A program made the translations under genes and the position numbers. DNA of 56,870 nt from positions 1 through 56,870 of the forward strand of contig NZ_BIXY01000039.1 in the NCBI RefSeq assembly GCF_008326305.1, given 5' to 3'. Each line of letters opens with the position of its first letter. The stretch's first letter is position 1. Below the pieces are notes generated by a model. The model saw only the letters and a program-made list of their open reading frames with translations, ran no database searches and was not told the DNA's origin. This stretch comes from Dictyobacter arantiisoli (GTDB lineage Bacteria > Chloroflexota > Ktedonobacteria > Ktedonobacterales > Ktedonobacteraceae). Shown piece after piece: positions 23,046-56,870 of this stretch.

Positions 23046-23159
23046 GTGTCAGCCTCCCGTGGTCTCCACCACACACTAAAAAAGACGTCACCTGCGCATA
23101 TTTTATGAAGTGTTGCTGAAAAAGTTTAAACTTTTTCAGCAACACTTCATAAAATATGC
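23046..23159. repeat. Hairpin repeat copy A (64-bp perfect palindrome)
   Basis: The segment opens with GTGTCAGCCTCCCGTGGTC, words shared with copies at 31749 and 35639, and then contains a perfect 64-bp palindrome (23096-23159) with no loop, centred on TTTAAA. The palindrome ends 4 bp before the stop of the minus-strand gene at 23164 and could act as its terminator. Confidence 0.85.
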
Positions 23160-31748: not shown

Positions 31749-31937
31749 TGTGTCTGCCTCCCGTGATCTCCACAGTCTCTGTGCATGAGTTTTCGCACCT
31801 ACGGTGCTCAAACATCTTTTTGTTGTGTCGTGTCGAAAAAATTCTTCGAATTTTTTCGACACGACACAACAAAAAGGGCGGCGCGCAGGCACCTGCCAGC
31901 AGCAGCAAGATCCCGATGGTACTGGGAGGCTGACACA
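31749..31937. mobile_element. MITE-like element, hairpin repeat copy B
   Basis: It is bounded by 14-bp terminal inverted repeats with one mismatch (TGTGTCTGCCTCCC at 31749-31762 and GGGAGGCTGACACA at 31924-31937). Inside are the conserved 56-nt module (31760-31815), a 29-bp perfect stem with TTC loop (31816-31876) and a GC-rich remainder. There is no coding capacity. Copies A, C and D share parts of it. Confidence 0.7.
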
Positions 31938-35037: not shown

Positions 35038-35421
35038 TTATACATCCTCTTCTTTATGATCGCGACGTGGCGCAACCGGCTGCTGTGATGCCTGCAAAGC
35101 GGACATCAAACAGCGCACCACCAGTACCACACTCACTACCAGGAGCAGGATGATCAGCGCAATCAGCACCATCTTGATGATATGCACTGTAAGCAACATC
35201 AATAGCATCACCAGGATCACCAGACCTGCAAAAACAAGGTTGTTCAAGCCAAATAAAATTGAGATCTGTTTATGCCATACTGCCCCCGAACCAACAATAC
35301 GTGCACGTGCTAATGCCTTACGACCAGAACGGATACTTCTAATCCCAAACGCACCTAACACCACCGCACAGATGCCTAAAAAAATAATACCAGCCAGACT
35401 AGCGACACTTAACACTGCCAT
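35038..35421 (-). CDS. Small membrane protein, hypothetical
   Basis: A 127-residue protein with three hydrophobic helices (about 5-25, 58-78 and 80-106). A basic loop with RSGRKALARARIV lies between the first two, and a charged C-terminus ends RRDHKEEDV. Family not recognised. It is preceded by a weak GGAGGC. The overlapping plus-strand frames are less convincing. Confidence 0.65.
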   Translation of the reverse strand: MAVLSVASLAGIIFLGICAVVLGAFGIRSIRSGRKALARARIVGSGAVWHKQISILFGLNNLVFAGLVILVMLLMLLTVHIIKMVLIALIILLLVVSVVLVVRCLMSALQASQQPVAPRRDHKEEDV

Positions 35422-35638
35422 AAAAGCCTCCGCGCTTCACACACAAGCTCATCTCCATTTCATCAATCAACAAACACTGCTTCCATACTATAGCATGCAT
35501 GACCATGCGCCACACAATTACCCTTCGCCTGAACACATCAACATGCAGAAACGCGCCAAAACAGTCGATAAAAGATAGTAGACAACAGGTGAGAAAAAAC
35601 TGAATATTTTAGCTATACTACATCCCCTAAGCGAAGCG

Positions 35639-35755
35639 CCCGTGGTCTCCACTGTCTCTGTGCCTGAGTTTTCGCACCTACGGTGCTCAAACATCTTTTT
35701 ATTGTGTGCTGTAGAAAAAGTTCTTCGAACTTTTTCTACAGCACACAATAAAAAG
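35639..35755. repeat. Hairpin repeat copy C
   Basis: The module 35639-35694 matches copy B (31760-31815) in length and almost every base, including the mini-hairpin GCACC-TACG-GTGC. It is followed by a 61-nt hairpin (35695-35755) with a perfect 29-bp stem and TTC loop. Five stem positions differ from copy B and all are compensated. Confidence 0.85.
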
Positions 35756-35811
35756 GGTGCGGGCGCTTACGCGCCCTGGCAGGTGAGACAGGGAGTGCAG
35801 GGAACCGCAGG

Positions 35812-36027
35812 CCCATAGGTGCGAACGTAAGGCTTTTCAAGCGGGATTGCAAAGGGCGGCCAGCCCTTTGCCGGGGTTTGGGGTGCCCCAAATACCTCTT
35901 TTTCTTCTTTTCTTCGCCGCCGCATGCGGCGGCGAGAGGGAGGTAAGAGATCGGGGCACAGCCCCGAGCCCCAGGTTAAGTTAAGGGTTGCACCCTTAAC
36001 AATCCCGCTTACGTTCGCACCTATGGG
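35812..36027. repeat. Nested multi-hairpin element
   Basis: Outer perfect 20-bp arms (35812-35831 and 36008-36027) enclose a second pair (35839-35849 and 36000-36010). Inside are five consecutive hairpins: 35849-35871, 35877-35892, a 20-bp palindrome 35915-35934, 35951-35967 and 35980-36000. Further hairpins sit just outside (35761-35776, 36022-36039). No coding frame is supported. The whole stretch 35422-36249 between genes is made of copy C, this element and flanking hairpins. Confidence 0.85.
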
Positions 36028-36249
36028 GGTGTCCCCATACCCTCCCTTCTCTCTCCCCGCGCCGCAGGCGGCAATAAAGAGAGCAGAAAACCCCCAAAAT
36101 TGCTGAATAGCTCAGCATAAATAAGATGATAGTATAGTATAATAGAAACTCACAGAAAAAATACCTATCAGCGCTTGACATCATGGCAGATGCTGACACA
36201 TAATCGATTTTTACATTTCCTTTGTCGTAGGAAGAAAAAGGATACAGGT

Positions 36250-36999
36250 ATGGAAACATATGGATTGCATCAGTATCCTGGCAAACTCTTTGTTGTTGAA
36301 GGAGTTGATGGTTCAGGAAAAAGTACACAGATCGCCTTGTTGCGTCAATGGCTGGTCAGCGAAGGCTATACAGTCTTTTTTAGCGAGTGGAACTCCTCGC
36401 CGCTGGTCAAAAAAACAACCCGTCGGGGCAAAAAAAAGCAGATGCTCACACCAACGACCTTTAGTCTGATTCACGCGACCGATTTCGCTGATCGGACCGA
36501 ACACGACATTATTCCTCCCCTCAAAGCCGGAGCTATTGTGCTCGCTGATCGCTATATCTATACCGCATTCGCACGTGATGTGGCCCGCAATGTAGATCGC
36601 CAATGGGTACGCGAGCTCTATCAATTCGCCGTTCAACCCACACGGGCCTTCTATTTTCGGGTTCCACTGGACATCTCCCTGGGTCGTATTCTCTCCAATC
36701 GCTCAGAACTGAAATACTATGAAGCAGGGATGGATCTAGAACTGCATAGTAATCCGCGCGAAAGTTTTGGCCTGTTCCAAAAACGCATTGTCGCCGAATA
36801 CGAAAAGATGATCGCTGAGTATAATCTGACCGTCATGGATGCAACCCTCCCTATTCCTGAACAGCAACGAATGATGCGCCAGTTGGTAGCGCCCCATCTG
36901 GAAGGGATACGCCGCTTCCGCCAGCTCATCCCCGGCACAGAGCTGGAACATATCGCCCATCGGGCAGACATCGTACATTCCACTTCTCATTCACAATAA
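36250..36999 (+). CDS. Thymidylate kinase-like P-loop kinase 1
   Basis: A 249-residue relative of dTMP kinase. It has an intact P-loop (VVEGVDGSGKSTQ), the DRYIY motif (family DRY) and a C-terminal LID-like region with EAGMDLELHSNP. It lacks the typical AYQ after DRYxxS and has an extended, His-rich C-terminus of about 35 residues. ATG 36250 is preceded by AAAAAGGA; the frame extends upstream to 36175 without an RBS. It lies 48 bp before a paralogue of similar length. Role as a true dTMP kinase is uncertain. Confidence 0.8.
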   Translation: METYGLHQYPGKLFVVEGVDGSGKSTQIALLRQWLVSEGYTVFFSEWNSSPLVKKTTRRGKKKQMLTPTTFSLIHATDFADRTEHDIIPPLKAGAIVLADRYIYTAFARDVARNVDRQWVRELYQFAVQPTRAFYFRVPLDISLGRILSNRSELKYYEAGMDLELHSNPRESFGLFQKRIVAEYEKMIAEYNLTVMDATLPIPEQQRMMRQLVAPHLEGIRRFRQLIPGTELEHIAHRADIVHSTSHSQ

Positions 37000-50212: not shown

Positions 50213-50504
50213 AATGAACACAAACGTAGGTGCGTCCCAAGGCCGCAGCCGAGGTGCGCTTTCCTCATCACGTACGAGAAACGCACCCGTAGGCTCATCC
50301 TTACCACAACTGTCATGCCAGGGACGTCACAGCGCGTTGGGGCGAGATGGTCGTACATGAACGGGGAAGCCCCCCCCGTAGGCTCATCCTTGCCACAACT
50401 GTCATGCCAGGGGCGTCACAGCGCGTTGGGGCGAGATGGTCGTACGTGAACGGGGAAGCGCACCTCGGTTGCGACCTCGGGACGCACCTACGTTTTTGTT
50501 CATT
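50213..50504. repeat. Inverted-repeat element with internal 89-bp tandem repeat
   Basis: Arms of 49 bp (50213-50261 and 50456-50504) match in reverse complement with four mismatches. Between them two about 85-bp units (from 50286 and 50375, period 89) differ by only a few A/G transitions. No coding frame is credible. It sits between the cupin gene and guaA; the rest of the gap to 50903 holds a weak possible promoter (TTGAAT 50624, TATACT 50649) but no gene. Confidence 0.85.
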
Positions 50505-54913: not shown

Positions 54914-55636
54914 ATTCCACTAATTAACAAAACTTTTAAGGCAAAAAAGGACGCAAGCCTTTTGATTGCTGACCGAGCGTGGCTCAACATGTAGAAAGAA
55001 TCCCGCAGGCAAAGGTATTGTAATACAACGAATTTTTGAGCTAGGAGCGGCGGGGCAGGCCAACATGCCTATTCTTGCTCATCCTTCGCCAGTGCTCCTT
55101 GTGGCGGGTAAAAAGCAGGAACACAATGCTATATTCGTTTGTCCTTCGTTGAATTGCTACAGCTTCTTCCTACTGCACATCCGCATTATACCTTTCTAAG
55201 GTAAGCCATCATAATTACTTTAAATAAAATACTTATGAACGGCCGTTCTCAATTTGGCTCTTTTACTATATTTAGTTACTATTTTAAACTCCAAACATTG
55301 ATTACAATAACCTAATCCAGTTATATCTGGATACCATATATTCTATAACTATCAACAGATAAAACTTAAAATATCAATAAGCTTGACAATACATAATTGT
55401 CAATGTTAATATATTTAAACTTGTTGATTTATAAATATTAAATATTAGTTTTTGTCACTCCCTAGTTGCAGACAGGCTTAAAGCTAGCTTGTACATAAAA
55501 TACTTGCTTGCATTTATTTTTCGATATAAATTGCAAAAACCCCAAAATTCCAATTAGGGAGGATGACCTGCGATATTTCAATTTTATTCAGCAAGCCGTT
55601 TCATTAATATATTAGCCTTATTGAAAGGGATGTCAA
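54914..55636. other. AT-rich intergenic region before the secreted-protein genes
   Basis: About 720 bp. At 55040-55140 a frame reads GQANMPILAHPSPVLLVAG, which may be a broken coding fragment; I cannot name it. From 55200 on the DNA is very AT-rich and has no clear signal except the RBS at 55623-55630 (GAAAGGGATG). The composition differs sharply from the housekeeping region, suggesting acquired DNA. Confidence 0.4.
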
Positions 55637-56143
55637 ATGAGGAAAATTTTATCCTTATTTTCAAGTGTTACGTTATGTTTGATCGTGTTGTTTCTTAGTA
55701 CCGTTAATGCTTCCGCTCATTCAGCCAGTGGTATTCCCGGGCACCACAACAACATATCAAATAGCAGTGTTATTCCTTATGCGGGTAACAGCTATAATGG
55801 CCAACAACCTGATACCTCAGGTTGCTGGGATTCTTCTGCTTACATTGTGAAAAGTGCGACAGGTACCTATAATGGAAATCCAGTCTTGATATATTTATGG
55901 TATTCCCCAACTTGTGGTACCAATTGGGGGGATTTTCAGATCACCAACCACGTAACCTTTAATTTAAGTGCACAGGTAACTAGAAATAGTGATTATTTAA
56001 CTGAAAGTGACTATTTCACGGGATGGAGAGTATGGTCTACGATGGTCTATGCACCAACCACGACCGCATATGCTTGTGGTTTTGTGATATATCACACTTC
56101 GAATTTTGATGGACAAGCTTATGAGCTTTGTGTTTCACAATAA
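55637..56143 (+). CDS. Secreted DUF2690-like protein
   Basis: A 168-residue exported protein. Residues 1-27 form a Sec signal peptide (basic MRK, hydrophobic VTLCLIVLFL, cleavage after ASA). The mature part has four Cys (63, 93, 147, 165), probably two disulfides, and the WYSPTCGTNWGDF block that recalls DUF2690 (RYSxxCGTxWA). DUF2690 proteins are found in actinobacteria and Chloroflexota, with no known function. RBS is AAAGGGATG-like, 8 nt before ATG. A near-identical copy follows. Confidence 0.8.
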   Translation: MRKILSLFSSVTLCLIVLFLSTVNASAHSASGIPGHHNNISNSSVIPYAGNSYNGQQPDTSGCWDSSAYIVKSATGTYNGNPVLIYLWYSPTCGTNWGDFQITNHVTFNLSAQVTRNSDYLTESDYFTGWRVWSTMVYAPTTTAYACGFVIYHTSNFDGQAYELCVSQ

Positions 56144-56494: not shown

Positions 56495-56513
56495 TTATTG
56501 AAAGGGATGTCAA

Positions 56514-56870
56514 ATGAGGAAAATTTTATCCTTATTTTCAAGTGTTACGTTATGTTTGATCGTGTTGTTTCTTAGTACCGTTAATGCTTCCGCTCATTCA
56601 GCCAGTGGTATTCCCGGGCACCACAACAACATATCAAATAGCAGTGTTATTCCTTATGCGGGTAACAGCTATAATGGCCAACAACCTGATACCTCAGGTT
56701 GCTGGGATTCTTCTGCTTACATTGTGAAAAGTGCGACAGGTACCTATAATGGAAATCCAGTCTTGATATATTTATGGTATTCCCCAACTTGTGGTACCAA
56801 TTGGGGGGATTTTCAGATCACCAACCACGTAACCTTTAATTTAAGTGCACAGGTAACTAGAAATAGTGAC
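56514..56870 (+). CDS. Secreted DUF2690-like protein, second copy (partial)
   Basis: Identical at nucleotide level to the first 357 nt of the gene at 55637 except the last base visible. It includes signal peptide, Cys63, Cys93 and the CGTNW block, and is cut by the window end, so whether its C-terminus (Cys147, Cys165) is present is unknown. Confidence 0.85.
   Translation, partial: MRKILSLFSSVTLCLIVLFLSTVNASAHSASGIPGHHNNISNSSVIPYAGNSYNGQQPDTSGCWDSSAYIVKSATGTYNGNPVLIYLWYSPTCGTNWGDFQITNHVTFNLSAQVTRNSD

Follow-up and report, generated by a model that had tools for sequence, protein, structure and literature searches.

The window analysed here, a stretch of 56,870 nucleotides from a contig of Dictyobacter arantiisoli, contains a hairpin-rich segment at positions 35812-36027, and a thymidylate kinase gene is located downstream of it (ORF 36175-36999; PF02223, E 2.3e-19). 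Repeats of other kinds are found elsewhere in the window. Five nearly identical tRNA-Met (CAT) genes, about 121 nt apart, are arranged in tandem on the minus strand (231-788). A perfect loopless palindrome of 64 bp maps to 23096-23159, two tandem 89-nt copies (94%) lie partly within 76-nt inverted arms (50213-50504), and a 300-nt direct repeat, 100% identical, occurs at 55618-55917 and 56495-56794, 877 nt apart. A further pair of repeats (31760-31878 and 35639-35757), called copy C, is 89% identical and features a 29-bp perfect hairpin; related places are present in contigs C33, C1 and C66 of the same genome, which is a draft of 7.2 Mb in 256 contigs. The features of the segment, named as they are interpreted below, are as follows.

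35814-36025, plus strand: putative non-autonomous element as a whole, 212 nt, with boundaries set from the target duplications of other copies and from the ends of an insertion sequence (IS) of Dictyobacter vulcani
35790-35813, plus strand: left flank, ending in GGAACCGCAGGCC, with no duplicate on the right
35814-35831, plus strand: left terminal inverted repeat (TIR), CATAGGTGCGAACGTAAG, found unchanged at both ends of the D. vulcani IS (1,516 bp)
35839-36010, plus strand: putative hairpin passenger (core), bounded by AAGCGGGATTG and CAATCCCGCTT and made of two head-to-head half-units; a core without these TIRs is found in genome G018, and a half-unit model has matches in 20 of 61 genomes
35849-35871, plus strand: hairpin 1, GCAAAGGG-CGGCCAG-CCCTTTGC, the tip of which is a landing site in arrays L030 and L072
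35877-35892, plus strand: hairpin 2, TTTGGGGTGCCCCAAA, with a loop one T shorter than in other copies
35915-35934, plus strand: hairpin 3, the central one, CGCCGCCGCATGCGGCGGCG, common to both half-units
35951-35967, plus strand: hairpin 4, TCGGGGCACAGCCCCGA, which includes GGG-N6-CCC; a matching hairpin is abutted by copies in L014 and L071
35980-36000, plus strand: hairpin 5, GTTAAGGGTTGCACCCTTAAC
36008-36025, minus strand: right TIR, exact reverse complement of the left one
36026-36044, plus strand: right flank, starting with GGGGTGTCCCC, a hairpin styled like hairpin 2, with no duplicate on the left

The anatomy given in an earlier note on this DNA was largely borne out. The outer arms (35812-35831 and 36008-36027) are perfect over 20 bp, with 100% complementarity and a spacing of 176 nt, the inner arm pair was read back from the sequence at 35839-35849 and 36000-36010, and all five internal hairpins are present. 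The description of the fold as cloverleaf-like is approximate: the segment adopts a strong multi-hairpin fold, but hairpins 2, 3 and 4 fuse into one nested arm in the minimum-energy structure. The predicted energy of the 216 nt is -138.4 kcal/mol, compared with a shuffle mean of -79.1 (sd 4.28; z -13.86), and none of 200 dinucleotide shuffles folded as well. A T/C-rich tract follows hairpin 2 and scores as terminator-like. The word said to be common to the segment and copy C does occur, matching the arm at 10 of 12 positions in each of the two copies (31791-31802 and 35670-35681), but this is chance level: the window holds six matches to the arm word with up to two mismatches, the shuffle mean is 3.99, and 23 of 100 shuffles contained at least six.

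The segment is one copy of a repeat of about 208 nt that is dispersed in this draft Dictyobacter genome (Ktedonobacteria). The absence of a second copy, named beforehand among the refuting conditions, is not what was observed: the search revealed 68 matching places in the same genome, a figure that includes both strands of some places and matches to the neighbouring repeat alone. Thirty of these places, together with 20 additional stretches, were taken forward as loci. Sixteen full copies of 196 to 212 nt, all from loci L001-L021, were compared (L017, 205 nt, was left out), and the consensus of intact copies is 208 nt long. Nine of them (L002-L010) share 98-100% identity, whereas identity between the window copy (L001) and each of the other 15 is 86-95%. 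Many additional copies are truncated. An ORF of at least 110 codons overlaps 12 of the 17 copies examined for gene placement; these ORFs are probably spurious and run through GC-rich hairpins. Hairpin 5 carries the loop TTGCA in 12 of the 16 copies and TGCAA in the remaining four, on the same stem and thus in both orientations, and the loop of hairpin 1 is inverted in L013. Stem-loop inversion seems to be frequent among the copies in L001-L021.

A candidate partner for the element was found in D. vulcani W12 (G001), the genome of which features seven inverted pairs of element ends approximately 1.5 kb apart. These pairs delimit an IS of 1,516 bp that has CATAGGTGCGAACGTAAG at both ends and a single 450-aa ORF; identity between its TIRs and those of the element is 18/18 bp at both ends. 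All seven copies of the IS are flanked by 12-bp duplications, which are located in GGG..CCC palindromes. The 450-aa protein contains the Pfam DDE_Tnp_1 domain (E 4.7e-18, above the cut-off), and the best of its seven NCBIfam matches is the IS4 model NF033592, at 96.7 bits and below the cut-off of 115. The YREK signature, Y-(2)-R-(3)-E-(6)-K, is intact (YRARWQIELLFKRIK at residue 319). With the two D residues chosen by motif, the D-D gap is 54 and the D-E gap 136; the spacing given for the IS4 family is D(60-110)D(100-150)E (PMC2266710). For the IS231 subgroup, the same source gives a target preference as well as ends of the type CAT-------AA--TAA---, 10-12 bp direct repeats and the YREK motif (its Table 1). 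Compared by eye, the ends of the D. vulcani IS match this tabulated consensus, its 12-bp duplications fall within the tabulated range, its size is within the range of 1,450-5,400 bp of the subgroup, and its transposase is encoded by a single ORF, as in the subgroup. Since the ends, duplications and YREK motif fit, whereas the IS4 score is below the cut-off and the D-D gap just short of the given range (the D-E gap being inside it), the element is referred to as IS231-like, which is not a formal placement in the subgroup.

An exact scan of the named genomes for the 18-bp end, which possibly left out own-genome records, returned 11 stretches: seven in D. vulcani, one in D. aurantiacus and three in unrelated genomes, where the single match each is probably due to chance. 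No intact partner IS was found in the draft genome of D. arantiisoli; a remnant alone was seen, in contig C93, with 85% identity over the first 192 nt of the IS. About 190 nt after the start of this remnant (L070), the sequence becomes unrelated and includes a short ORF (MARIVPFYLQ...), as either a truncation or a passenger would produce. Seventeen DDE_Tnp_1 places in the same genome were considered as partners and rejected, as no matching end pair was seen. Contig C28 carries a related IS that has the end CATATGCGTTAACTTAG and is cut by the contig end. In G002 and G022, transposases that are 33-34% identical over most of their length are located between ends of the type CATAGGCGCGGAC.... At L066 (contig C40 of D. 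arantiisoli), the same 13-bp end, CATAGGTGCGAAC, lies in a hairpin target and is followed by a different interior, which includes an imperfect inverted repeat (ATGAGTCATCCC..ATACCGTTGGGAAACCC).

Similarity between the element and the IS ends after 18-19 bp, and an origin of the interior by deletion from the IS was rejected on this ground. The interior consists of two head-to-head half-units, each composed of AGCGGGATTG followed by two hairpins, with the central hairpin common to both. This core occurs independently of the TIRs. For instance, G018 (L032) carries both halves without these TIRs, at 77% over 179 positions. A covariance model of the half-unit finds matches in 20 of the 61 genomes searched, and at least 67 matches in D. 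arantiisoli itself. A 93-nt half-unit consisting of hairpins 3, 4 and 5 forms a tandem array of at least six copies in G004 (L038; contig C2, 2583126-2583674). In hand-chosen alignments of 16 and 14 sequences, double changes that keep the stems were observed across genera at 7 of 22 and 5 of 27 pairs, respectively. The half-units were folded separately for this purpose because their joint alignment shifts hairpin 1 by one base.

The kept stems invite the reading that the segment is a structured RNA, one of the suggestions of the earlier note, or a bidirectional terminator, selected by the host and only incidentally repeated, with hairpins that act in transcripts and outer arms that belong to the RNA. 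The stretch 35400-36400 also holds four terminator-like sites, compared with 1.3 in shuffles, which fits this reading; two of these sites overlap and correspond to hairpin 2 and its T-rich tail, and one corresponds to the right flank. The outer arms, however, are exactly the ends of an IS and are absent from core copies elsewhere. Moreover, the covariation terms obtained with RNAalifold, computed without a null model, are small (-0.91 and -2.19 kcal/mol), and all eight Rfam matches in the window at gathering thresholds are tRNAs, with none at the element. Palindromes in DNA can also be maintained by repair that copies one arm from the other. We regard an RNA or terminator origin as unlikely; a role in transcripts would not exclude a mobile element.

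The same passenger is found between other transposon ends. Of 78 places examined in relatives, 9 are flanked by inverted repeats with a score of 11 or more, one of them (L044) weak, and the other 69 do not reach this score; the corresponding rate in controls is 0.9% of 3,000 spans. L037 has the ends CAGGGCTTTCCCATTCT and a 10-bp duplication, L052 the ends CAGGGCTGTTGCAAGGTCG and an 8-bp duplication, and L185 CAGGGC-type ends and a 9-bp duplication. The ends of L201 and L202 are similar, and their duplications, judged by eye, are imperfect. L047 and L049 feature TGAGTCATCCC-type ends without a clear duplication, while L190 has yet another type, and the similar L191 scored 9, under the threshold. 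Two transposases of D. arantiisoli with CAGGGC ends belong to the ISAs1 family (L084, 199.8 bits; L088, 197.5 bits; cut-off 70). A second composite in this genome, with ends like CATGAGTYATCCCGA... and a related core, is present at L233-L235, L243, L244 and L246-L249. Some of its copies are partly diverged; L235 features a 9-bp duplication, identified by eye, and none was seen in the others.

Side-by-side comparison of flanks placed the duplication of the target immediately outside CATAGG...CCTATG. Counting distinct flank pairs, and accepting only exact duplications that are 8 bp or longer and no more than 3 nt away from the element ends, duplications were identified in 17 of 27 pairs, corresponding to 11 of 21 in D. 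arantiisoli and 6 of 6 in D. vulcani, where the seventh copy, with flanks identical to those of another, was merged. With shuffled pairing of the flanks, 0.98 such pairs were obtained on average and 4 at most. The duplications in D. arantiisoli measure 12 bp in eight cases, 11 bp in L006 and L064, and 10 bp in L007; one of the failing pairs of this genome, L020 (1,500 nt), consists of ends paired by chance. Targets were reconstructed from copies with exact duplications alone (nine from D. arantiisoli and seven from D. vulcani), and several of the 16 sit in copies of one repeat, so that the 16 events are not all independent of one another. The sites targeted are palindromes of the type GGG..CCC. 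Ten of the 16 have a hairpin stem of 7 bp or more, compared with 0.9% of random 32-mers from the window, and the remaining six have 4-bp stems, as do 38% of random 32-mers. No empty site was detected for four joined targets, with up to two mismatches, among the loci compared in D. arantiisoli.

The motif GGG-N6-CCC occurs 14 times in the window, which is within chance (shuffle mean 11.14; at least 14 in 18 of 100 shuffles). Hairpin 4 holds two overlapping occurrences, and another crosses the right boundary of the element; because the motif is found inside the element, the passenger carries possible targets along. IS231A prefers GGG-N5-CCC.

Insertions into hairpins, both of other repeats and of the element's own copies, were observed. 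In L008 and L010, the element is located inside hairpins of the second composite and is flanked by 12-bp duplications. In L014, L071 and L080, it directly abuts internal hairpins of its own copies; one flank is truncated there, and a two-sided duplication is therefore not demonstrable. The suggestion of the earlier note that hairpin repeats were inserted into each other comes close to these data, in that TIRs surround an older hairpin module. A recombination site, also suggested there, is less apt a description than a transposable element, given outer arms that are the TIRs of an IS4-like IS and duplications at other copies.

No target duplication surrounds the window copy itself, whose left flank ends in GGAACCGCAGGCC and whose right flank starts with GGGGTGTCCCC. 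Both flanks resemble hairpin halves, which makes it likely that the duplication was lost by exchange or deletion between copies, as far as can be judged from the flanking sequences. Some IS copies without duplications are mentioned in the literature (PMC11708052). This copy, the arrays of 52-53-nt heads and mosaics (L030, L072, L024 and L025; in L030 and L072, the head arrays stop at the hairpin 1 tip) and the hairpin loops present in both orientations would fit a family in which hairpin repeats multiplied chiefly through homologous recombination, slippage and gene conversion. Transposition, in contrast, is needed for almost identical copies that sit at different places and carry exact target duplications, and we consider spread without it highly improbable; recombination may account for the flanks of the window copy, not for the family. 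Least probable is that a Y1 (RAYT) transposase spread a REP/REPIN-like repeat whose arms are IS-like only incidentally, as evidenced by 12-bp duplications and 18-bp perfect TIRs shared with a DDE insertion sequence, whereas Y1 transposases are not known to make target duplications; the resemblance of the interior to repetitive extragenic palindromes, with its two half-units in inverted order, and the single Y1_Tnp gene of D. arantiisoli fit it, and Y1 spread may have been an earlier route of the older passenger.

We therefore favour, with a probability of about 0.88, the reading that the segment is a copy of a non-autonomous IS231-like element (a MITE or MIC of the IS4 family) with a hairpin passenger. 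This identity is strongly supported by sequence comparison. A transposase from an IS such as that of D. vulcani would act in trans on the element, which would be excised and reinserted, with a stagger of 12 bp, over the tip of a target hairpin. Rather than a deleted IS, the interior would be a passenger: a repeat of Ktedonobacteria with several hairpins, older than the element and now located between transposon ends. Its hairpins appear to be of the landing type, and each insertion would add possible landing sites; because the passenger contains such hairpins, insertions would supply new sites and lead to nested and mosaic arrays.

A further step, which we offer tentatively and consider possible rather than probable, is that the hairpin module acts as a landing pad that is portable between elements: Ktedonobacteria transposon families with unrelated ends would each have taken it up, and it would be the preferred target of the IS231-like transposase. 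If so, new insertions would be attracted to older ones and kept away from genes, the element would construct a safe harbour for itself, and the compensatory changes in the stems would reflect selection as a target.

What began as an odd fold may thus be approached as a mobile element that can be tested, with its partner transposase named and its target defined. The family would provide a natural case of a transposon carrying hairpins of its own landing type, and of one hairpin module in transposons with different ends. It bears on the origin of hairpin-rich intergenic repeats and on why insertion sequences often sit there. It also calls for caution, as strong folding and compensatory changes do not necessarily indicate a functional RNA. 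No description of the element was found in titles and abstract openings of the open-licence literature on Ktedonobacter and Dictyobacter repeats, MITEs, insertion sequences and nested hairpins.

Among known systems, the closest are the IS231 subgroup and the MIC231 cassettes of the Bacillus cereus group. The tabulated data of PMC2266710 give the IS231 subgroup the same features as the element and its partner: ends that start with CAT and have AA and TAA at the conserved positions, 10-12 bp duplications and the YREK motif. According to PMC3913671, MIC231A1 is a cassette flanked by IS ends; it has no transposase and is moved in trans by that of IS231A. The element has the same layout, and its mobilisation in trans would be analogous. 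In contrast to IS231 and MIC231, the element comes from Ktedonobacteria, and its passenger is a non-coding hairpin array, not a gene. It also differs from IS231A in its target spacing, GGG-N6-CCC, and in a passenger that contains such targets. Like REP sequences, BIMEs and REPINs, the element is short-palindromic, dispersed and non-coding, and occurs in inverted pairs and arrays, but unlike them it has transposon ends and target duplications. The MITEs L037, L052 and L185 of other Ktedonobacteraceae have the same hairpin half-unit inside TIRs. They differ from the window element in their TIRs (ISAs1-like inverted repeats of 17-19 bp starting with CAGGGC), in duplication length (10, 8 and 9 bp, respectively) and in carrying one half-unit instead of two. 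The unusual part is that one hairpin module is common to different transposon ends and resembles the landing site.
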